Source of the DNA: Alphaproteobacteria bacterium
GTDB lineage: Bacteria > Pseudomonadota > Alphaproteobacteria > ATCC43930 > CGMCC-115725
Length of the DNA: 46,084 nt
Assembly: GCA_030041385.1 (NCBI GenBank)
Contig: JASHNY010000066.1
Coordinates: 1 to 46,084 of the forward strand
Direction: 5' to 3'
Under the pieces are notes generated by a model. That model did not search any database. It saw nothing but the letters and a program-made list of their open reading frames with translations, and was not told the origin of the DNA. Position 1 is the first letter of the stretch; every line of letters starts with the position of its first letter. Of the stretch, positions 26,110-40,569 are shown piece after piece. The translations under genes were made by a program, and so were the position numbers.

Positions 26110-27264
26110 ATGGCAGGGGTTTACGCAGTTGTGGTTGCGGCCGGACGCGGCATCCGGTTCGGCGGCGAATTGCCCAAGCAGTATCTCGGGCTCGGCGGAA
26201 CGGCGGTGTTGCATCACGCGGCCGCGACGTTCGCCCGGCACCCGCGGATTGCCGGCGTGCAGGCCGTGATCCGGCCCGAGGATCGCGCCCGCTACGACGA
26301 GGCGGTGTCCGGGCTCGGCCTCTTGCCGCCGATCGCAGGCGGCGCCGAGCGGCAGGATTCGGTACGGCTTGGGCTTGAGGCGCTGATCCCGCGCGCTCCC
26401 GACCGGGTGCTGATCCACGACGGCGCGCGGCCGTTTCCCGGTCACGACCTGATCGATCGGGTCATCGACGCGCTGGACGAGGCCCCGGCGGCGATCCCGG
26501 CCCTGCCGCTCGGGGACACGATTAAGCGGGTCGAAGGCGGCCATATCCGCGCGACGGTCGATCGCGCACAACTGTGGCGGGCGCAGACGCCGCAGGGGTT
26601 TCGCTTTGAGGCGATCCTCGCCGCACACCGGGCCGCCCAGGGCCGCACCTTGACCGACGACGCAGCGGTCGCCGAGGCGGCGGGGATTGCGCCGCTGGTC
26701 GTCGCCGGCAACGAGGAGAACATCAAGGTGACGACCGTGCAGGACCTCGCCGCCGCCGAGCGGCTGCTCGCGGCGCGGCTCGGCGATATCCGGGTCGGCC
26801 AGGGCTTCGACGTGCACCCGTTCGGCCCCGGCGGCGGGGTCGTGATCTGCGGCGTCGCGATCCCGCACACGGCAGCGCTCGTTGGCCATTCCGACGCCGA
26901 TGTCGGGCTCCACGCGATCACCGATGCAGTGCTCGGCGCGATCGGCGCCGGCGATATCGGCCAGCATTTTCCGCCCGGCGACGCGCGGTGGAAGGGCGCC
27001 GGTTCCGACCGTTTCCTCGCGCATGCCGCCAGTCTTGTCGCCGCCAAGGGCGGCGTCGTCGCCGCAGTCGACGTGACGATCGTCTGCGAGCGGCCCAGGA
27101 TCGCCCCGCACCGGGCGGCGATGACCGAGCGCGTCGCCGCGATCCTCGGCATCGCCACCGACCGGGTCAGCGTCAAGGCGACGACGACCGAAAAGCTCGG
27201 CTTTACCGGCCGCGGCGAAGGCATCGCCGCGCAGGCGGTCGCCACGATCCGGCTGCCGCTCTGA
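26110..27264 (+). CDS. ispDF: Bifunctional IspD/IspF (MEP isoprenoid pathway)
   Basis: A 384-residue fusion typical of alphaproteobacteria. The IspD half (1 to about 223) makes CDP-methylerythritol: VVVAAGRGIRFGGELPKQY is the CTP-binding loop, with HDGARPF and QTPQGF later. The IspF half (about 227-384) makes the cyclodiphosphate: the metal site is D234 and H236 in GQGFDVHPF, followed by GHSDADVGLHAITDA and TTTEKLGFTGRGEGIAA. The start at 26110 gives the natural IspD beginning MAGVYAVVVAAG. It heads a plus-strand run with pgpA and the CinA-type gene. Confidence 0.97.
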   Translation: MAGVYAVVVAAGRGIRFGGELPKQYLGLGGTAVLHHAAATFARHPRIAGVQAVIRPEDRARYDEAVSGLGLLPPIAGGAERQDSVRLGLEALIPRAPDRVLIHDGARPFPGHDLIDRVIDALDEAPAAIPALPLGDTIKRVEGGHIRATVDRAQLWRAQTPQGFRFEAILAAHRAAQGRTLTDDAAVAEAAGIAPLVVAGNEENIKVTTVQDLAAAERLLAARLGDIRVGQGFDVHPFGPGGGVVICGVAIPHTAALVGHSDADVGLHAITDAVLGAIGAGDIGQHFPPGDARWKGAGSDRFLAHAASLVAAKGGVVAAVDVTIVCERPRIAPHRAAMTERVAAILGIATDRVSVKATTTEKLGFTGRGEGIAAQAVATIRLPL

Positions 27265-27280
27265 GCCGGCGCAGAACCGC

Positions 27281-27342
27281 CGCGCTGCGCTGGCAATGAC
27301 AAAAGAGCGCGCCACCGCGAGGAGCGAAGCGACGAAGCAACC
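27281..27342. repeat. Family-A interspersed repeat covering the pgpA start
   Basis: A partial copy of the GTCATTGCGAG...CTCGCAATGAC palindrome family: CGCGCTGCGCTGGCAATGAC followed by CGCGAGGAGCGAAGCGACGAAGCAA. The ATG inside GCAATGAC is the apparent start codon of pgpA, and the second part is read as its first codons. Confidence 0.65.
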
Positions 27343-27853
27343 CCCCTCAGCCGAGGCGCAGGGCACAACGTCCCGCCTCAACCTGCCGTTCGGCCACCCG
27401 GCTTTACTGCTCGCGACCTGGTTCGGCGCCGGGTTATTGCCGTGGACACCGGGCACCTGGGGTTCGCTCGCCGCCCTGCCCTGCGCCTGGGCGATCCGGC
27501 TGTTGTGGGGCGATCCCGGCCTGGCGGCGGCGGCCGTCTTGGTGTTTGCGCTCGGCTGCTGGGCGGCCTCGGTCGCCGCCGCGGCGAGCGGGCGAGACGA
27601 TCCCGGCGCGATCGTCATCGACGAGGTCGCGGCGCAGTTTCTGGCATTGCTGGCGGCGCCGGCCGATTGGCGCGGCTACGCTGCGGCGTTTGTGCTGTTT
27701 CGCCTGTTCGATATCTGGAAGCCGTTTCCGATCAGGCGGCTCGAGCGCAGCGTGCCGGGCGGACTCGGCATCATGCTCGACGACGTGCTGGCCGCCGTCT
27801 ACGCTATGATCGTGCTGTTGCTCGCCGGAGGAGCGCTCGGTGTTCGACCCTGA
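27296..27853 (+). CDS. pgpA: Phosphatidylglycerophosphatase A
   Basis: A 185-residue membrane phosphatase that dephosphorylates phosphatidylglycerol phosphate. Family motifs are present: LPWTPGTWGSL near residues 45-55, DPGAIVIDEVAAQF, FRLFDIWKPFPI and GIMLDDVLAAVYA. The first roughly 30 residues (TARSEATKQ...) are not PgpA-like; they are translated from an interspersed repeat, and the ATG at 27296 lies in that repeat. No ATG, GTG or TTG occurs between it and the conserved domain, and there is no good ribosome-binding site. It overlaps the CinA-type gene by 14 bases. Confidence 0.9.
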   Translation: MTKERATARSEATKQPPSAEAQGTTSRLNLPFGHPALLLATWFGAGLLPWTPGTWGSLAALPCAWAIRLLWGDPGLAAAAVLVFALGCWAASVAAAASGRDDPGAIVIDEVAAQFLALLAAPADWRGYAAAFVLFRLFDIWKPFPIRRLERSVPGGLGIMLDDVLAAVYAMIVLLLAGGALGVRP

Positions 27854-28328
27854 GATTCTCGAACTGGCGGAAGCGGTGCTCGAGGCCTATCGCCGCCGCG
27901 GCTGGAAGCTCGCCACTGCCGAGAGCTGCACCGGCGGCCTCGTCGCCGCCGCGCTGACCGCGATCGCCGGCTCCTCGGATGTGGTCGAGCGCGGCTATGT
28001 GACCTATTCCAACGCCGCCAAGATCGAACTGCTCGGCGTGCCTGAGACGACGCTCCTCGCCCACGGCGCGGTCAGCGCCGAGACCGCCGCGGCGATGGCG
28101 GCCGGGGCCGCGCGCCGCGCCGGGGTCGATGTCGCGGTGTCGATCACCGGAGTCGCCGGCCCAGGCGGCGGCAGCGACGAGAAGCCGGTCGGGCTCGTCT
28201 ATCTCGGGACCGCCCGGCGCGGCCAGGGCGGGAAGAGCGAGCGCCAGATGTTTCGCGGCGACCGCACCGGCATCCGCCGCGCCGCGCTGGTGCGGGCGCT
28301 CGAACTGCTGAAGGCCGGGGCCGCATAG
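27840..28328 (+). CDS. pncC: CinA C-terminal family nicotinamide-nucleotide amidase
   Basis: A 162-residue stand-alone CinA C-terminal domain, which deamidates nicotinamide mononucleotide to recycle NAD. The signature AESCTGG is at residues 27-33, with catalytic serine S29 by family knowledge. ITGVAGPGGGSDEKPVGLVY follows. GTG at 27840 is preceded by GGAGGAG, inside the end of pgpA, pointing to coupled translation. The N-terminal CinA nucleotidase domain is absent, as is usual in this group. Confidence 0.92.
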   Translation: MFDPEILELAEAVLEAYRRRGWKLATAESCTGGLVAAALTAIAGSSDVVERGYVTYSNAAKIELLGVPETTLLAHGAVSAETAAAMAAGAARRAGVDVAVSITGVAGPGGGSDEKPVGLVYLGTARRGQGGKSERQMFRGDRTGIRRAALVRALELLKAGAA

Positions 28329-28334
28329 GCCGCA

Positions 28335-28354
28335 GGGCGCCTACGCCGGCGCCC
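28335..28354. terminator. Hairpin between convergent pncC and RatA-like genes
   Basis: GGGCGCC (28335-28341) pairs with GGCGCCC (28348-28354), and flanking GCAGG/CCTGC lengthens the stem with one bulge. It lies just past the pncC stop and at the RatA-like stop codon. No T-run follows, so termination is only possible. Confidence 0.35.
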
Positions 28355-28802
28355 CTGCCGAACCGGGCGCCGGCTTGCCGTAAAGATCGCGGGCGCGGCC
28401 CTCGAACGCGGCGACCATGCGCCGGACCGCCTCGCCGAACAGCAGCTCGATCGCCTTCTGCAGAAGGCGCGACTTGAACTCGAAATCGACGAAGAAGTCG
28501 ATGCGGCAGCCGCCCGCCACCGCCTCGAACCCCCAATGGTTGTTGAGGTAGCGGAACGGGCCCTCGGCATAGGTTACGTCGATCCGGTCCGGCGGGGCGA
28601 GCGCGACCCGCGAGGTAAAGCGCTCGCGAAACACGCGGAAGCCGATGATCAGGTCGGCGACGATCAGGTCCGGCCGGCGTTCGCGAATGCGCGCGCCGAT
28701 GCACCACGGCAGGAATTCCGGGTAGCGCTCGACATCGGCGACCAGTGCAAACATCTGCTCGGGGGTATACGGCAGCAGGCGCCGCTCGGCATGGGTCGGC
28801 AT
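28341..28802 (-). CDS. RatA/COQ10-like SRPBCC (START-fold) protein
   Basis: A 153-residue protein of the polyketide-cyclase/START family that includes COQ10 and RatA. LPYTPEQMFALVADVERYPEFLPWC at the N-terminus is the family hallmark, followed by FRERFTSRV and FFVDFEFKSRLLQKAIELLFGEA. COQ10 homologs bind ubiquinone and support respiration, and the RatA toxin role is reported in E. coli. In alphaproteobacteria next to lipA the quinone-binding role is more likely, which is inference. It runs in the same direction as lipA, downstream of it. Confidence 0.88.
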   Translation of the reverse strand: MPTHAERRLLPYTPEQMFALVADVERYPEFLPWCIGARIRERRPDLIVADLIIGFRVFRERFTSRVALAPPDRIDVTYAEGPFRYLNNHWGFEAVAGGCRIDFFVDFEFKSRLLQKAIELLFGEAVRRMVAAFEGRARDLYGKPAPGSAGAPA

Positions 28803-28847
28803 CGGGGCTCGCGGCCGCCCTACCCGAGCACCCCAGCCCGCCGGCCC

Positions 28848-28910
28848 GTCACGGCCGGGCTCGACCCGGCCATCCCAGCAAATCCCTGGGTCAAGCCCGG
28901 GGATGACGGC
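28848..28910. repeat. Interspersed repeat with GACCCGGCC and CAAGCCCGG arms
   Basis: Short palindrome GTCACGGCCGGGCTCGACCC ... GGTCAAGCCCGGGGATGAC, one of several copies of a dispersed family in the window (compare 31396-31476 and 44017-44139). It lies between lipA and the RatA-like gene. Confidence 0.6.
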
Positions 28911-28943
28911 TGAAGGGGTGGAAGCGACATAGGTGGGCCCAGC

Positions 28944-29882
28944 CTAGTCGCCCGCAAGCTGCGCGCTGCGCGCCGCCTTGAGCCGGGCGAAATCGTCGCC
29001 GGCGTGATAGGACGACCGCGTCAGCGGCGATGCCGCGACCATCAGAAAGCCCTTGCCGAGGGCGAGCCGGCGATAGCTGCCGAATTCCTCGGGCGGCACA
29101 AAGCGATCGACCCGGTGGTGCTTCGGCGTCGGCTGGAGGTATTGGCCGATGGTCAGGAAATCGACCTCGGCGGCGCGCAGATCGTCCATGACCTGGGCCA
29201 CCTCTTCCCGCCCCTCGCCGAGCCCGACCATCAGCCCGGATTTGGTGAACATCGCCGGGTCGATGCGCTTGACCCGGTCCAACAGCCGCAGCGAGGCGAA
29301 ATAGCGCGCACCCGGCCGCACCTCGGCATAAAGCCGCGGCACGGTTTCGAGGTTGTGGTTAATGACATCGGGCCGCGCCGCGACGACGGTCTCGATCGCG
29401 CCGTCCTTGCGCAGGAAGTCGGGCACCAATACCTCGATCGTCGTCGCCGGCGCGGCGGCGCGGATCGCCGCGATCGTGCGGGCGAAATGGCCGGCGCCGC
29501 CGTCGTCGAGATCGTCGCGATCGACCGAGGTGACGACGATGTGGTTAAGCCCGAGCCGCCCCACCGCCTCGCCGACCCGCTCCGGCTCGTGTGGATCGAC
29601 AAGGTCGGGCCGCCCGGTCGCGACGTTGCAGAAGGTGCAGGCGCGGGTGCACACGCTGCCGAGGATCATCACGGTCGCGTGCTTTTCCTTCCAGCACTCG
29701 CCGATATTGGGGCACGCCGCCTCTTCGCACACGGTATGCAGGTCGAGCTCGCGCATCAGCCGGCGGGTCGCATGATATTCCGGCGAGCCCGGCGCCTTGA
29801 CGCGGATCCAGGGCGGTTTGCGCGGGCTTTCCTGGTCGGGCAGCGCAGCCTTTTCCGGGTGGCGCAACGGCACGGCGGTCAT
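28944..29882 (-). CDS. lipA: Lipoyl synthase
   Basis: A 312-residue radical-SAM enzyme that inserts two sulfurs into octanoyl-lysine to make lipoate. The auxiliary [4Fe-4S] cysteines are C52, C57 and C63 in [12 protein letters not shown]; the radical-SAM CxxxCxxC is C78, C82 and C85 in CTRACTFC. The conserved serine near the end is in TRSSYHAG (about 290-291). It sits beside the pyruvate dehydrogenase genes, whose lipoyl domains it modifies. The ATG at 29882 is the first possible start in frame and lies in a repeat arm (GCAATGAC), with only a weak AAGG upstream. Confidence 0.96.
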
Positions 29883-29964
29883 TGCGAGGAGCCTTCGGGC
29901 GACGCGGCAATCTCGGTCCGGTTACACAGTTTCATCGAGATTGCTTCGCTGCGCTCGCAATGAC
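29878..29964. repeat. Family-A repeat at the lipA start
   Basis: A full palindromic copy, GTCATTGCGAGGAGCC ... GAGATTGCTTCGCTGCGCTC plus GCAATGAC. It fills nearly all of the gap between lpdA and lipA. The lipA start codon is the ATG of one arm. Confidence 0.75.
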
Positions 29965-29971
29965 GTGAACC

Positions 29972-31372
29972 CTAGAAATGGAGCGCGCGGCCATAGGCAT
30001 CAAGCACGCTCTCGTGCATCATCTCGCTCAGCGTCGGGTGCGGGAACACGGTCGCCATCAATTCGCTCTCGGTGGTTTCGAGCGTCTTGGCAATCGTGTA
30101 GCCCTGGATCAATTCGGTGACCTCGGCGCCCACCATATGCGCACCAAGCAACTCGCCGGTCTTGGCGTCGAACACGGTCTTGACCATGCCCTCGGGCTCG
30201 CCGAGCGCGATCGCCTTGCCATTGCCGATAAACGGGAAATGCCCGATCCGGACCTCGCGCCCGCCCTCGCGCGCCGCCTTTTCGGTCAGGCCGACGCTGG
30301 CGATTTGCGGGCGGCAATAGGTGCAGCCGGGGATGTTGCGCAGGTTGAGCGGATGCACCTCGTTGAGCCCGGCGATCTTTTCGACGCAGATCACCCCCTC
30401 GTGCATCGCCTTGTGGGCGAGCCAGGGCGGCCCGACCAGATCGCCGATCGCGTAAACGCCCACCTCGCCGGTGCGCAGCCATTCATCGACGACGACGTGG
30501 CCGCGGTCGACTTTGATCCTGGTGCCGTCGAGGCCGATATCCTCGGTATTGCCGGTGATGCCGACCGCCGAGATCACCCGCTCGACCGTAACCTCCGACA
30601 CCTTGCCGCCGGCGTCGATCTGCGCCGTCACCCGGTCCCGGCCGCGCTTCAACGCTTTCACGGTAGCCCCGGTGTGGATCGCGATCCCCTGCTTTTCGAA
30701 CGCCTTGCGGGCAAAGGCGGAAATCTCCTCGTCCTCGACCGGCAAGATGCGGTCGAGCACCTCGACCACGGTCACCTCGGCGCCCATGTCGCGGTAAAAG
30801 CTGGCGAATTCGATGCCGATCGCGCCCGAGCCGATGACCAGCAGCGACTTCGGGATCGCCGCCGGCACCATCGCCTCCTTGTAGGTCCAGACGAGCTTGC
30901 CGTCGGGCTCGATCCCCGGCAATGAGCGCGCCCGCGCCCCGGTCGCCAGGATGATGTGCTTGGCGGAAAGCTCGGCGACCGGCTTGCCGTCCTTTGCGAC
31001 GGCGAGCTTGCCCTGGCCGGCGAGCCTCCCCTGTCCGTCGAACACGGCGACCTTGTTCTTGCGCAGCAGAAACCCGACACCGTTCGACAATTGCTTGGCG
31101 ACGGCGCGCGAGCGCGCGACCACCTTGCCGGCATCGAATTTGATGTCCTTCGCCGAAAACCCGTATTCGTCGAGCCGGTGCAGCAGGTGGTAAATCTCCG
31201 ACGCGCGCAGCAAGGCCTTCGTCGGGATGCAGCCCCAGTTGAGGCAGATGCCGCCCAGATGCTCGCGCTCGACGACCGCGGTCTTCATGCCGAGCTGCGC
31301 GGCGCGGATCGCCGCGACATAACCGCCCGGCCCGCCGCCGAGCACAACGAGATCGAACGAGGTTTCGGGCAC
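29972..31372 (-). CDS. lpdA: Dihydrolipoyl dehydrogenase (E3)
   Basis: A 466-residue FAD-dependent E3 that reoxidises the lipoyl groups of PdhC. VVLGGGPGGYVAA is the FAD motif. The redox disulfide is C43-C48 in GGICLNWGCIPTKAL, GSGAIGIEFASF is the NAD motif and the catalytic His-Glu pair is H445/E450 in FPHPTLSEMMHE. The start is set at GTG 31372 because it gives the family N-terminus PETSFDLVVLGGG; the open frame continues upstream but there it reads repeat sequence (DPRVKPAGGEAG). The ribosome-binding site is weak. It follows pdhC in the operon. Confidence 0.95.
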   Translation of the reverse strand: MPETSFDLVVLGGGPGGYVAAIRAAQLGMKTAVVEREHLGGICLNWGCIPTKALLRASEIYHLLHRLDEYGFSAKDIKFDAGKVVARSRAVAKQLSNGVGFLLRKNKVAVFDGQGRLAGQGKLAVAKDGKPVAELSAKHIILATGARARSLPGIEPDGKLVWTYKEAMVPAAIPKSLLVIGSGAIGIEFASFYRDMGAEVTVVEVLDRILPVEDEEISAFARKAFEKQGIAIHTGATVKALKRGRDRVTAQIDAGGKVSEVTVERVISAVGITGNTEDIGLDGTRIKVDRGHVVVDEWLRTGEVGVYAIGDLVGPPWLAHKAMHEGVICVEKIAGLNEVHPLNLRNIPGCTYCRPQIASVGLTEKAAREGGREVRIGHFPFIGNGKAIALGEPEGMVKTVFDAKTGELLGAHMVGAEVTELIQGYTIAKTLETTESELMATVFPHPTLSEMMHESVLDAYGRALHF

Positions 31373-31395
31373 TAGAATAATTCCAGCTTCGCCTC

Positions 31396-31476
31396 CCGCG
31401 GGCTTGACCCGCGGGTCCACGTCTTTGCGCCATCCGCAACAAGACGTGGATGGCCGGGACAAGCCCGGCCAAGGTG
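31396..31476. repeat. Interspersed repeat with 9-bp inner stem, pdhC-lpdA gap
   Basis: Outer arms are of the CGGGCTTGACCCGCGGGTCC and GGCCGGGACAAGCCCGGCC type. They enclose a perfect stem CCACGTCTT (31417-31425) / AAGACGTGG (31441-31449) with a 15-base loop. It could shape the mRNA between pdhC and lpdA. Confidence 0.65.
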
Positions 31477-31509
31477 ATGAGTGGGGAAACGGTGAAACAC
31501 CAACCGGGC

Positions 31510-32841
31510 CTAAAGCAGCATTGCCACCGGCTCCTCGACCAGCCGCTTGAAGGCTGAGAGGAAGCGCGCGCCGACCGCACCATCGACGGCACGATGGTCG
31601 CAGGACAGCGTGCAGCTCATCACCGTCGCGACCGCGAGCTGGCCGTCCTTGACGACCGGCCGTTCCTCGCCGGCGCCGACTGCGAGGATGCAGCCATGCG
31701 GCGGGTTGATCACCGCGGCGAATTCCCTGACCCCGAACATGCCGAGGTTGGAGATCGAGAACGTGCCGCCCTGATATTCTTCGAGCTTCAATTTTCCGGC
31801 GCGGGCGCGGGCGGCGAGGTCGCGCGTCTCGGCCGCGATCTGCGCCAGCCCTTTAAGGTCGGCGCCGCGGATGATCGGCGTGATCAGCCCGTCATCGAGC
31901 GCGACCGCGACGGCGATATCGGCCCGTTGCCACAGGATGATCGCATCCTCGCTCCACGACGCGTTGGCCGCCGGCACCTGGCGCAAGGCCAAGGCCGCGG
32001 CGCGGATCACGAAATCGTTGACCGAGATGCGGTTGCTCTCGGACATCGCGTTCAAAGCCTTGCGCGCGCGCAATAACTCGTCGATGCGGCAATCGACGGT
32101 CAGGTAGAAATGCGGGACGGTCTGCTTCGATTCGGTCAGCCGCCGCGCGATCACGCGGCGCATCGCGCTGTGCGGCTTCTCGGTAAAGGGCGCATCGCCG
32201 GCGACGGGCACGAACGGCACCGCCGGGGCGCGCGCGACCGCGGGGGAAGGAGCGGCAGGCTGCGCCGGCGGCCGCGCCCCGCCGCTGAGCGCGGCGTCGA
32301 TATCGGCCTTGACGATGCGGCCCTGCGGCCCCGAGCCGCGCAATGCCGCCAGATCGAGCCCGGCCTGCGCCGCCATGCGGCGGGCGAGCGGGCTGGCAAA
32401 GATGCGGGCGCCGTTATGCTGCGCCGCCGGCGCCGGAGAAGACGCCTCTGCCCGCGGCCGCGGGGAGAGCGAGGGACCCGCGTCAGCGGGGGGGCGAGGG
32501 GCAGGTTCGGGCGGTCCGGTTTCCGCCGGTGCCGTTTTCGGAGTTTCTGCCGCCGGTGCCGCCGATGGCTGGAACCCGCTGAGGCTCGACGCATCCTCGC
32601 CCTCGCCGAGCAACAGGGCGATCGCCTGGTTGACCTTGATCCCCTGGGCGCCCTCGGGCACCAGGATCTTGCCGATGCGCCCCTCGTCGACCGCCTCGAC
32701 CTCCATCGTCGCCTTGTCGGTTTCGATCTCGGCAAGCACGTCGCCCGAATGCACCTCGTCGCCTTCCTTCTTCAGCCACCGGGCGAGGTTGCCTTCGGTC
32801 ATCGTCGGCGACAGGGCGGGCATCAGGATTTCAGTCGGCAT
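31510..32841 (-). CDS. pdhC: Pyruvate dehydrogenase E2 (dihydrolipoamide acetyltransferase)
   Basis: A 443-residue E2 core protein. A single lipoyl domain (1-80) carries K43 in [11 protein letters not shown] Pro/Ala-rich linker (about 92-142) follows, then the peripheral-subunit-binding domain (about 145-183, [20 protein letters not shown]). The catalytic acetyltransferase domain contains HFYLTVD and the active-site [11 protein letters not shown] (H416, D420). It moves acetyl groups from E1 to CoA. It is between pdhB and lpdA on the same strand. Confidence 0.96.
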
Positions 32842-32865
32842 GGGTCAGGTCACATCGAATGGCGG

Positions 32866-32950
32866 GTCATTGCGCGGAAGCGAAGCCGACGCGGCAATCT
32901 CGACGGGGCGGATCCTGTGCACGAGATTGCTTCGCTGCGCTCGCAATGAC
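32866..32950. repeat. Family-A repeat, pdhB-pdhC gap
   Basis: A copy of the family-A palindrome, GGGTCATTGCGCGGAAGCGA ... GAGATTGCTTCGCTGCGCTC plus GCAATGAC, lying 25 bases upstream of the pdhC start codon. It fills most of the gap after pdhB. Confidence 0.75.
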
Positions 32951-32959
32951 ATTGAGGAT

Positions 32960-34339
<1,380 letters not shown>

Positions 34340-34396
34340 CTCGCCCCCGGCATCGCTCTCGCCCCGGCGCCGCTTTCAGCCTTGCCCATCGCCGGA

Positions 34397-35407
34397 TCAC
34401 GCCTCGGCCAATACATCCGTCCACAGCTCGTCGGCATCGGGTTCGGGGCAGTCCTGGGCAAACTGCGCCGCCTCGGCGACGATATCGCGCACCTTTTTCT
34501 CAACCTCGCGCAGGGCCGCCTCCGTCGCCACGCCGCCGTCGATCAGCCGCTGGCGCAGATGGTCGATCGGGTCGTGCTCGCTGCGCACCCGGTTGACCTC
34601 GTCGCGGGTCCGGTATTTCGCCGGATCCGACATCGAGTGGCCGCGATAGCGGTAGGTCAGCATTTCGAGAATGATCGGCCCTTCGCCCGAACGGACATGC
34701 TCGGCCGCCGCGATGCCGGCGTGATGGACCGCGACCACGTCCATGCCGTCGACCTGCTCGCCGGGAATGCCGTAAGCGGTGCCGCGGTGGTAGAGATCGG
34801 TGCGTGCCGAGGCCCGGTCTACCGAAGTGCCCATCCCGTAGCGGTTGTTCTCGATCACATAGACGACCGGCAGCTTCCACAGCGACGCCATGTTGAAGCT
34901 TTCATAGACCTGGCCCTGGTTGATTGCGCCGTCGCCGAGATAGGTGACCGAGATGAACCCGTCGTCGCGGTAATGATGGGCAAAGCCGAGGCCGGTGCCG
35001 ATCGGCACCTGGGCGCCGACGATGCCGTGCCCGCCGAAGAAATTTTTCTCGCGGCTGAACATGTGCATCGAGCCGCCCTTGCCGTGGGAATAGCCGTCGC
35101 GGCGCCCCGCCAGCTCGGCCATCACCCCCTTGGGGTCCATGCCGCAGGCCAGCATGTGGCCGTGGTCGCGATAGGAGGTCACGATCGTGTCGCCCTCCGT
35201 CAGCGCCGCCTGCATGCCGACGACGACCGCCTCCTGCCCGATATAGAGGTGGCAGAACCCGCCGATCAGCCCCATCCCGTATAATTGGCCGGCGCGCTCC
35301 TCGAAGCGCCGGATCAGCAGCATGTCGTGAAAGAATTGCTTGAGCGTCTCAGGCGTAACGTCAGGCTCCGCGGGCTTGACCGGTTTAGCCTTGCGCTTCG
35401 CTACCAT
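34397..35407 (-). CDS. pdhA: Pyruvate dehydrogenase E1 alpha
   Basis: A 336-residue E1 alpha subunit. The ThDP-binding motif is GDGAINQGQVYESFNMASLW, continuing to YVIENN. The phosphorylation-loop region YRYRGHSMSDPAKYRTRDE and the opening FHDMLLIRRFEERAGQLYG are standard. It is the first gene of the pdh group here and follows ftsB with a 137-base gap. It decarboxylates pyruvate and passes acetyl groups to PdhC. Confidence 0.97.
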   Translation of the reverse strand: MVAKRKAKPVKPAEPDVTPETLKQFFHDMLLIRRFEERAGQLYGMGLIGGFCHLYIGQEAVVVGMQAALTEGDTIVTSYRDHGHMLACGMDPKGVMAELAGRRDGYSHGKGGSMHMFSREKNFFGGHGIVGAQVPIGTGLGFAHHYRDDGFISVTYLGDGAINQGQVYESFNMASLWKLPVVYVIENNRYGMGTSVDRASARTDLYHRGTAYGIPGEQVDGMDVVAVHHAGIAAAEHVRSGEGPIILEMLTYRYRGHSMSDPAKYRTRDEVNRVRSEHDPIDHLRQRLIDGGVATEAALREVEKKVRDIVAEAAQFAQDCPEPDADELWTDVLAEA

Positions 35408-35544
35408 GCGTTCCCTCCGGGCTGGCCTAGCAGGATGGTGTCAAACGCCGCGGTTTGCAACTGCACGGGCGCCGATTCAACGGAAACGCAACAGGAACGT
35501 TTGGCGCGACACGATGGCCCGCCGCGCCGCCGCGCCAGCCTTGG

Positions 35545-35871
35545 CTAATGCGGGTTGGCCGGCTGTTGGGGAATGACGATTTCGTTCGGGGAAACCAGGT
35601 CGAGCGTGCGCCGGACCTCTTCGTCGAGCAGGTCGGGATCGACGTGGTTGGGCTGCATGTCGCCGACCCGGCGGTCGAGCGCCTGGCGCTCTGCATCCAC
35701 CGCCGCGAGGTTGCCCTCGGCCACGCGCACCTGGTGATTGAGCCGCACCCACGCCCGCAATCCGCGGTCCCCCTCGACCAGGTTGTACGCGAAATACGCG
35801 GTCGCCGCCAATCCCAGCACGGGGCCGACGAGGAACCGCGCCCGGCGGCGCATTTCGCGCAACACGACCAT
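35545..35871 (-). CDS. ftsB: FtsB/DivIC-family septum formation initiator
   Basis: A 108-residue bitopic membrane protein. One membrane helix lies at about residues 14-31 (FLVGPVLGLAATAYFAYNLV), followed by a periplasmic coiled-coil (LNHQVRVAEGNLAAVDAERQALDRRV). The end, DLLDEEVRRTLDLVSPNEIVI, matches the septum-initiator family (ending P-x-E/D-V-V). FtsB links FtsL and FtsQ in the divisome. Its place between eno and pdhA is conserved in alphaproteobacteria. Confidence 0.93.
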   Translation of the reverse strand: MVVLREMRRRARFLVGPVLGLAATAYFAYNLVEGDRGLRAWVRLNHQVRVAEGNLAAVDAERQALDRRVGDMQPNHVDPDLLDEEVRRTLDLVSPNEIVIPQQPANPH

Positions 35872-36056
35872 AGCGAGAGAGAATCACGCGGCGGGGCCGG
35901 CGTCAACGCGCATCGGCCGGGGGCCGCCGACACGGTTACAGGCCGTGCCGAGCCGGGTTCGCGCAGAGGATTCGAAACCCTGCCGCAAGCATCTGATGTA
36001 CAGATATAAAGAACGCGGCTTCGGCGCCGGCAGATGGCCAGGCGAGCCCGTTGCGC

Positions 36057-37714
<1,658 letters not shown>

Positions 37715-37962
37715 GCGGTTCTGCTCTCCATGCGGAGATGATGTGGCGTTCGTCACCGTCCCGGTCGGTATAGATCACCGTGATCTCAACGCCGTTCACC
37801 ACTCCGATCGATATACCCGAATTTCGTCATAGTCGAATCGATCGTCTTCGCGCTCAACGGTGGGGTCATCGAATATCCGGGTCGCGTCGGCGAAGGCAAT
37901 CGCGTGCCTCCGGATGTTCGCCAGGTTCTTGTCTGGGTCCCAGGTAAACCGCACATTTGTAT

Positions 37963-38829
37963 CTAGTCACCGCGATTGCCCGGCTCAACAGCCGGCAGCG
38001 GCCGCGCCTTGGCGATGCGGTCGAATTCGGCGAGGGTTTCGAGCAGCGCCGGCAGGGATTTCAGCGGCAGCATGGTCTGGCCTTCGCACGGCGCGCGGTC
38101 GGGGTCCTCGTGGGTTTCGAGGAACATCGCCGCGACTCCGACCGCGGCGGCGGCGCGCGCCAAGACGGGGCCGAATTCCCGCTGCCCGCCCGAGCGGTCG
38201 CCAAGCCCGCCCGGCTCGGCCACCGCATGGGTGGCGTCGAACACCACCGGATAGCCGGTCCGCGCCATGATCGGCAGCGCGCGCATATCGACGACGAGCG
38301 TGTTGTAGCCGAAGCTGGCGCCGCGCTCGCACAGCAGGATCTGGTCGTTGCCGGTCGAGGCGACCTTGCCGGCGGCGTTCCACATGTCGTGCGGCGCGAC
38401 GAACTGGCCCTTCTTGATGTTGACCGGTTTCCCGGTCTTGCCGGCTGCGACGAGAAGGTCGGTCTGGCGGCACAAAAACGCCGGGGTTTGCAGGATATCG
38501 ACGATTTCGGCGACGGGCGCACATTGCTCGGGCGTGTGGATGTCGGTCAAAACCGGCAGCCCCGAACTCTCCCGCACCTCGGCAAGGATCGGCAATCCGG
38601 CCTTCAGCCCGATGCCGCGCGCCCCGGCAATCGACGAGCGGTTGGCCTTGTCAAACGAGGTCTTGTAGATCAGCGGAATCGCAAGCCTGCCGGCAATCTC
38701 CTTCAGCGCCGCGCTCATCTCCAGCGCGTGGCTGCGCGATTCGAGCGTGTTCGGCCCGACGATGAAGACCATCGGCAAATCATTGCCGATGGTGATGCTG
38801 CCGACCGAAACGTGACGTGACGCATTCAT
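37963..38829 (-). CDS. kdsA: 3-deoxy-8-phosphooctulonate synthase (KDO8P synthase)
   Basis: A 288-residue aldolase-type enzyme condensing phosphoenolpyruvate and arabinose-5-phosphate for lipopolysaccharide KDO. Conserved segments are SFDKANRSSIAGARGIG, VLTDIHTPEQC, NIKKGQFVAPHDM and VFDATHAV. The metal-type enzymes have cysteine in GPCAIES; here it is N27 in GPNTLES, so this is the metal-independent class. A family-A repeat lies 11 bases upstream of its ATG. It is between pyrG and the inserted brnTA pair. Confidence 0.96.
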   Translation of the reverse strand: MNASRHVSVGSITIGNDLPMVFIVGPNTLESRSHALEMSAALKEIAGRLAIPLIYKTSFDKANRSSIAGARGIGLKAGLPILAEVRESSGLPVLTDIHTPEQCAPVAEIVDILQTPAFLCRQTDLLVAAGKTGKPVNIKKGQFVAPHDMWNAAGKVASTGNDQILLCERGASFGYNTLVVDMRALPIMARTGYPVVFDATHAVAEPGGLGDRSGGQREFGPVLARAAAAVGVAAMFLETHEDPDRAPCEGQTMLPLKSLPALLETLAEFDRIAKARPLPAVEPGNRGD

Positions 38830-38840
38830 TGGTTCAGTCC

Positions 38841-38926
38841 GTCATTGCGAGCGCAGCGAAGCAATCTCATGCGGTAGGAGATTCCGTTGCACGAGATTGC
38901 TTCGTCGCCGCGCTCCTCGCAATGCC
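38841..38926. repeat. Family-A repeat upstream of kdsA
   Basis: A palindromic copy, GTCATTGCGAGCGCAGCGAA ... GAGATTGCTTCGTCGCCGCG plus CTCCTCGCAATG, fills the pyrG-kdsA gap. On the minus strand its ATGAC forms a 3-codon frame (ATG ACG GAC TGA) that ends 4 bases before the kdsA ATG. Confidence 0.75.
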
Positions 38927-38934
38927 ATCCCGGC

Positions 38935-40569
<1,635 letters not shown>

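Follow-up and report, generated by a model that had tools for sequence, protein, structure and literature searches.

An intergenic palindromic repeat of Alphaproteobacteria that keeps clear of most gene starts and appears to have replaced the start codons of a few operon genes

In Escherichia coli, repetitive extragenic palindromic sequences (REP) and bacterial interspersed mosaic elements (BIME) are found near stop codons, no more than 15 nt behind one in 260 of 496 cases according to Liang, Rudd and Deutscher (2015, Mol Cell 58:431) as quoted in PMC12306157. In the wider REP set of PMC12306157 itself, 446 of 4,072 (about 11%) are this close to an upstream stop, and ribosome stalling has been reported for REPs at such a distance (Liang et al. 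2015, as cited in PMC12306157 and PMC5082802). The present work concerns a palindromic repeat from a 46,084-nt stretch of DNA (the window; contig JASHNY010000066.1 of assembly GCA_030041385.1, Alphaproteobacteria), which was followed in the window's own genome (G000), in G001 of the same genus and in G022 of another genus. With the REP/BIME sequences of these sources the repeat has in common that it is a short extragenic palindrome present in numerous copies, which often follow an upstream stop at 15 nt or less. It differs in its unrelated sequence and in an ATG reading outward at both ends, which is the apparent start of the next gene in several operons; stop anchoring beyond that expected from avoidance of starts was seen only in G022. 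The reading which we favour, with a probability of roughly two in three, is that of a REP-like, two-armed intergenic palindrome which is not aimed at starts, but overruns them in tight operons, where mainly the cases with an in-frame ATG survive.

Other described repeats resemble it in part. Br-REP1 and Br-REP2 of Bradyrhizobium japonicum (PMC5082802) are likewise alphaproteobacterial palindromes located in 3' untranslated regions and between genes, and the printed Br-REP2 consensus ends in ...CCGGAATGA; their stems, however, differ, and the main text of PMC5082802 does not contain the term "start codon". Rickettsia palindromic elements and other coding miniature inverted-repeat transposable elements (MITEs; Ogata and others, according to PMC10969869 and PMC2229807) join conserved proteins, as the present repeat does at the N-terminus of PgpA. 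The Rickettsia elements are often inside reading frames, whereas here only 5 of 217 clusters (3/105 in G000, 0/60 in G022, 2/52 in G001) fell within called genes, and what the repeat usually contributes is a start codon; assignment to this class was rejected. Fusions with the enterobacterial repeats ERIC/RU-1 and RU-2 (Delihas 2007, PMC2759123) also supply proteins with extra residues or ends, N-terminal parts among them (YP_0349), but are longer than those of the present repeat, and neither "start codon" nor "initiation codon" occurs in PMC2759123. In a literature search limited to papers outside subscription and mostly to hits at listing level, no paper describing start codons supplied by a repeat was found. 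The 8 and 13 papers that matched the repeat letters in full text appeared unrelated, judging by their titles.

The 11-mer GTCATTGCGAG has 159 exact copies (79 + 80) in the G000 genome (4.39 Mb, 264 contigs, the window being contig C30) and none in the reversed-pattern control; it was found in 44 of 61 genomes, G000 included, at 0 to 159 copies per genome. The typical element has two arms, is near 87 nt long and carries an outward ATG at each end. A spacer of about 30 nt separates arm A (GTCATTGCGAGCGcAGCGAAGCAATC, 26 nt) from the reverse complement of arm B (about 32 nt), and each end of such a +/- element reads outward as CAATGAC. The length was 65-113 nt in 38 copies with both ends exact. 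When 81 regions (502 kb) were scanned with an arm model, 169 arms scored at least 9 bits, and none did so in reversed sequence. The copies in the window and the genes read from two of them are:

29878..29964, minus strand: full element of 87 nt, between an lpd-like gene (name unsearched) and lipA, the GCAATGAC end holding the lipA ATG
29880-29882, minus strand: lipA ATG, inside that end
28944..29882, minus strand: lipA (lipoyl synthase), open reading frame from the repeat ATG, NCBIfam NF004019/TIGR00510
about 27274..27335, plus strand: degraded element with the arms reversed, delimited by hand and under the arm-model threshold
27296..27853, plus strand: pgpA from the repeat ATG at 27296, Pfam PF04608 at residues 39-177
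about 32866..32950, minus strand: element ahead of pdhC, one arm intact and the other decayed (8.6 bits); names pdhB and pdhC unsearched
38841..38924, minus strand: element ahead of kdsA, a name taken unsearched from the earlier, sequence-only reading of the window

The distance from the upstream stop to the element is 7 nt at lipA (stop 29972-29974), 9 nt at pdhC (stop 32960-32962), 10 nt at kdsA (stop 38935-38937 of a 542-aa ORF) and, measured by hand, about 9 nt at pgpA (stop 27262-27264 of a gene which we take to be ispDF). The degraded pgpA copy matches other genomic copies in parts, at 76-96%. Downstream, the pdhC element lies about 25 nt ahead of the next ATG (32841) and the kdsA element 11 nt ahead of the kdsA start (38829), where its ATG opens a mini-frame, ATG-ACG-GAC-TGA, ending four bases before the kdsA ATG. 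The sequence-only reading had reported the lipA and pgpA ATGs inside repeat copies, the copies ahead of pdhC and kdsA and this mini-frame, all of which were found again. Its further remark that all four copies sit at a gene start holds for these copies, but each is also 7-10 nt past an upstream stop, and copies elsewhere avoid starts.

Placement was assessed on two-armed clusters with two called neighbours (61 in G000, 44 in G022, 43 in G001) against 2000 uniform draws in the same gap; three values in a row are given below in this order of genomes. Start edges at -6 to 15 nt numbered 16/61, 0/24 and 3/42 against 26.0, 4.4 and 13.2 expected, and draws as low occurred 3, 8 and 0 times. On this depletion, enrichment of the copies at gene starts was rejected. 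Stop edges within 0-15 nt (38/61, 51/64 and 24/44) exceeded the uniform expectation of 30.3, 38.7 and 15.4, which was reached in 16, 0 and 6 draws. With the 15 nt before starts reserved, 38.2, 40.3 and 22.6 stop edges were expected and the observed counts were reached in 1221, 0 and 698 draws; avoidance of starts therefore suffices in G000 and G001, but not in G022. Among tandem pairs the stop was nearer than the start in 32/43, 16/18 and 29/36. Stop distances fell at 5-14 nt for 44/96, 57/84 and 24/50 stop edges, while start distances were broad in G000 and G022, with none of 26 G022 start edges within 15 nt, and piled up at 18-28 nt in G001 (27/47). In wide tandem gaps (at least 60 nt), two-armed copies within 15 nt of the stop numbered 3/7 in G000, 3/12 in G001 and 8/12 in G022. 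Clusters with two called neighbours lay between convergent stops in 28/50 cases in G022, compared with 16/112 element-free pairs, and in 13/99 cases in G000.

Strong stop anchoring in every genome had been obtained with a first null, which mixed in single-arm clusters, and was withdrawn in part. Under it, 34.0, 38.9 and 15.9 stop edges were expected within 15 nt and 50/92, 53/72 and 27/48 were counted (0/2000 each), and 19, 0 and 3 start edges stood against 30.9, 4.3 and 13.8; it is unreliable because the undetected second arm of a single-arm cluster inflates the spacer. The apparent stop proximity in 60-120 nt gaps of G000 was nearly all from single-arm clusters, only 2/16 being two-armed. 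The G000 sample covers places up to contig C154 plus some later ones, with only arms having GAGG beyond C170; the G022 and G001 samples are the first 100 of 118 and of 146 places, several listed G001 places being omitted. The choice of regions by the exact 11-mer favours intact ATG ends and leaves decayed copies, such as that of pgpA, under-represented. For gene calling a small purpose-written Markov gene finder was used, which misplaced the pgpA, kdsA and monooxygenase starts.

The repeat is also neutral with respect to frame. An outward repeat ATG was in frame with a gene start within 400 nt in 33/118 cases (22/72, 6/21 and 5/25), which does not differ from one third (p=0.24). Nor did decayed arms point to selection for the ATG, which was kept in 14/17 start-facing and 14/21 stop-facing arms (p=0.46). 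As to mini-frames like that ahead of kdsA, which could couple translation as the sequence-only reading suggested, 12/47, 0/9 and 7/16 out-of-frame repeat ATGs open a frame that terminates no more than 10 nt from the called start, as raw counts with no null.

Called starts coincided with a repeat ATG in five G000 genes, lipA and four of those below; the monooxygenase and pgpA were added by hand, and none of the 26 start edges of G022 was captured. Where an ordinary start followed 3-18 codons past an in-frame repeat ATG, the gene was not counted as captured (e.g. L197, L208, L210, L236 and L268; L390 and L392 in G001).

G000, region L179: dnaE2, repeat ATG is the called start
G000, region L232: OppD/DppD-like ATPase, repeat ATG is the called start
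G000, region L248: short-chain dehydrogenase/reductase (SDR), repeat ATG is the called start
G000, region L256: paaC, a 63-residue fragment cut by the contig end, repeat ATG is the called start
G000, region L251: FAD monooxygenase, added by hand, the finder having chosen a GTG inside the Rossmann strand
G001, region L378: LivF-like gene (name by eye), next start 57 nt on

Past the repeat ATG, dnaE2 offers no further start for 84 nt and the SDR gene none within 30 codons; in the monooxygenase the next one is a GTG 33 nt on, inside the first Rossmann strand. Profile matches of DnaE2, SDR and the monooxygenase cover residues that internal starts would remove, and residues 4-14 of the five G000 proteins other than LipA align at NCBIfam profile positions 1-6. 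On this sequence evidence the dnaE2, SDR and monooxygenase captures appear firm. Near alternatives make paaC (GTG at codon 10, 27 nt on), the OppD-like ATPase (TTG at codon 9, 24 nt on) and lipA softer cases. Six captured G000 copies, called or added by hand, begin 7-19 nt past the upstream stop (13, 8, 16, 19, 7, and 9 for L232, the last taken by hand since its second arm was undetected).

Junctions were compared with those of relatives for dnaE2, lipA, SDR and pgpA, and starts in repeat-free relatives were tight or nearby. In 21/22 displayed relatives dnaE2 starts 1-7 codons before the conserved Y-A-E, as in G000, and in 12/22 an upstream TGA overlaps the start or is within about 4 nt of it (by eye; upstream frame unchecked). 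For SDR, 9/10 relatives start 4-6 codons later (3 with GTG, 1 with TTG) and one at the same place (by eye). In several congeners (G001, G002, G005 and G007) the DnaE2 matches break near residues 289-293 in an insertion-like manner.

The lipA ATG of the window is the only ATG available, as had been stated, but not the only usable start that can be proposed: an in-frame GTG (codon 4) and TTG (codon 6) leave that part of the claim unproven, and the evidence supports the repeat ATG as the likely start. Its N-terminus is ordinary in length, since in repeat-free relatives between 3 and about 16 residues mostly precede the conserved RHPEKA, a few frames being longer. The ATG is in an element end in G001 as well, where the gene finder favoured a second ATG 24 nt downstream, and decayed copies in G002 and G035 (another genus) keep it, giving four genomes in two genera. 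No element is present at the junction in G004, G006 and G007, and in G004 and G006 lipA starts 3 nt after a stop. On a LipA tree of 22 of 30 loci, with element absence judged by eye, the element label needs three changes, gains or losses, two of them forced by well-supported branches, and is no more clustered than shuffled labels (99/500 as low). The nearest named LipA records are from metagenome-assembled genomes of Alphaproteobacteria (86%) and Stellaceae (82%); G000 may itself belong to the Stellaceae.

For pgpA, the evidence supports the repeat ATG as the only plausible start, judging from the reading frame. After it there is no ATG, GTG or TTG until a TTG at codon 48 (27437), inside the conserved region, which the gene finder picked instead. 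As had been stated, no Shine-Dalgarno (SD)-like motif precedes the ATG. The ATG (27296) is the end of the first arm of the degraded copy, which shares the reversed -+ layout of some G001 clusters, and the second arm would be translated as ATARSEATKQ. In all, 29 residues, ten of them from the second arm, precede LPFGHPA, against about 5-10 (by eye) in relatives with an evident start. The idea that the repeat creates new starts holds in part: the PgpA N-terminus is new, but repeat-free relatives start dnaE2, and mostly lipA, within a few codons of the same place, so that elsewhere the repeat would have replaced starts rather than invented N-termini. In the congener G006 another palindrome (GCAGTCCCGGCGAAAGCCGGGATCC...) ends just before the pgpA ATGACC (L151, about 1400-1495), and this junction has thus been struck by two different repeats. 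No pgpA match at E<=0.001 was found in G001 and G002 (completeness 94% and 99%).

In the model that we propose, the element would survive between the stop codon and the ribosome-binding region of the next gene and so stay mostly clear of starts. Where operon genes overlap or almost touch, an insertion just past the stop would overrun the next start. Because each end reads outward as CAATGAC, about one in three such insertions would bring an ATG in frame, and mainly those would survive; in a few genes the repeat ATG may then have taken over from the native start. Insertion first, selection of the in-frame cases afterwards and use of the AUG in the cell are steps that we infer. Element-free tandem pairs had a spacer under 8 nt in 51/248 cases; scaled to the 63 non-captured tandem copies (69 minus 6), about 16 overruns would be predicted were every frame to survive, and 6 were seen, which fits one-third survival as a rough check made after the fact.

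Several observations weigh against this model. Five of six captured AUGs are predicted to be fully paired in the hairpin, with an unpaired probability of 0.001-0.005 against a median of 0.45 for 150 other genes. An SD-like motif is missing in five of six, compared with 261/479 called genes having one; the pgpA AUG is predicted open (0.98) but lacks the motif. Use of the captured AUGs in the cell is hence uncertain. Weak initiation is expected from paired, SD-less AUGs unless the hairpin is opened at its 5' base by a terminating ribosome, a step that is speculative. The alternative starts in lipA, paaC and the OppD-like gene also count here, as do lipA leader stability not above shuffles (z -1.1), start positions taken from a simple gene finder and a comparison with relatives confined to the dnaE2, lipA, SDR and pgpA junctions. 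Neither a mobilising enzyme nor a target duplication was found in the PF01797 and flank searches.

The depletion near starts and the absence of frame enrichment contradict, as a general rule, the earlier view of a repeat that supplies new starts again and again and is placed or kept at starts for that purpose, which we consider highly improbable. Captured starts do recur, in dnaE2, SDR, the monooxygenase and the LivF-like gene of G001, more softly in paaC and the OppD-like gene, and in lipA of G001, G002 and G035, so that lipA carries the repeat in two genera; retention of the ATG was not preferential at start-facing ends, and none of the 26 G022 start edges came within 15 nt. A further point for this view is that Br-REP2 of Bradyrhizobium, as printed, and a second palindrome of the window, at one of its ends, also read outward as ATGA(C), like the present repeat. 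These ends could have evolved as a "portable operon junction", by which a selfish repeat enters overlapping gene pairs without killing the downstream gene: a terminating ribosome would rest on the hairpin's 5' base, at 7-13 nt from the stop, and so free the AUG on the 3' base, which would couple translation of the captured gene to that of its neighbour. We regard this as quite unlikely.

A possible, if doubtful, alternative is an active 3'-end element, targeted to or kept 5-15 nt behind stops for a role in ribosome stalling or mRNA protection, with start capture as a by-product. It is favoured by G022, where the stop excess persists under the start reserve and so many clusters lie between convergent stops, and by a Methylosinus plasmid copy flanked by two convergent annotated stops at distances of 19 and 21 nt; by analogy with E. 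coli, G022 would be the best candidate for REP-like stalling. The loss of the excess in G000 and G001 (38 vs 38.2, 24 vs 22.6) and their few copies near the stop in wide tandem gaps speak against it, but not the 8/12 of G022. Somewhat less probable, and in our view unlikely, is that the captures are an illusion of annotation, native GTG, TTG or rarer starts persisting just downstream of a repeat that forms an ordinary 5' leader. The alternatives in lipA, paaC and the OppD-like gene, the second ATG of G001 lipA, the GTG or TTG starts of several SDR relatives and the paired, SD-poor AUGs would agree with this, but downstream starts would cut profile-matched residues in pgpA, dnaE2, SDR and the monooxygenase, and those of pgpA, dnaE2 and the LivF-like gene are distant.

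Capture of starts by a repeat not aimed at them provides a testable route by which non-coding sequence replaces the start codons of conserved genes (dnaE2, pgpA, perhaps lipA), and such replacement can occur without any preference of the repeat for starts. Automated start calls beside REP-like repeats need checking. If the stop spacing of G022 is general, the 15-nt stop rule of E. coli REPs would extend to an unrelated alphaproteobacterial repeat.

With respect to class, the element is short, palindromic, extragenic and dispersed in many copies, as REPs are; closeness to stops was above uniform in three genomes, with only G022 exceeding the reserve null. A REP mobilised by a REP-associated tyrosine transposase was rejected, as the Y1 transposase family PF01797 shows no correlation with the repeat: no hit at E<=0.001 was obtained in 8/12 genomes with at least 30 exact motifs, 7 of them at least 95% complete, and no exact motif piece lies in the 3-kb stretch around the G000 hit. 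A classical MITE was rejected for lack of target-site duplication, no direct flank match of at least 4 nt being found among 49 G000 and 43 G022 copies with intact ends. Rfam covariance models gave 0 matches at E<=1 in window positions 27000-39500. An intrinsic terminator is recognised by a T run after the hairpin; the G022 flanks have pyrimidines before it and hence purines after it, no dedicated terminator scan having been made. In G022 regions L272-L326 pyrimidines predominate among the few bases that separate stop and repeat, 79/86 flanks having C at -1, and the stops ahead of the repeat appear to be mostly TAA or TAG.

Matches outside chromosomes comprised five plasmid records (Novosphingobium 2, Methylosinus 2, Halomonas 1), the Novosphingobium stretch with the repeat carrying no annotated genes, and one phage match of 37 nt in an unannotated 4.5-kb record. 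The second, different palindrome of the window (28848-28909, GTCACGGCCGGGCTCGACCCGG ... GGTCAAGCCCGGGGATGACGG) lies between the gene at 28341-28802 and lipA; one end reads outward ATGAC and the other GTGAC, and its core motifs recurred 4 and 7 times in 525 kb, with 0 in the reversed control. The reversed arm layout (-+, ATG ends inward) was found in 18/52 clusters of G001, 4/105 of G000 and 0/60 of G022. In G022 contigs C8, C12, C24, C41 and C42 exact repeat motifs start 2-44 nt from the contig start, so the repeat probably breaks the assembly there. At the end of G001 contig C89 (L389, 1996-2386) five copies stand in tandem with a period of 91-92 nt.

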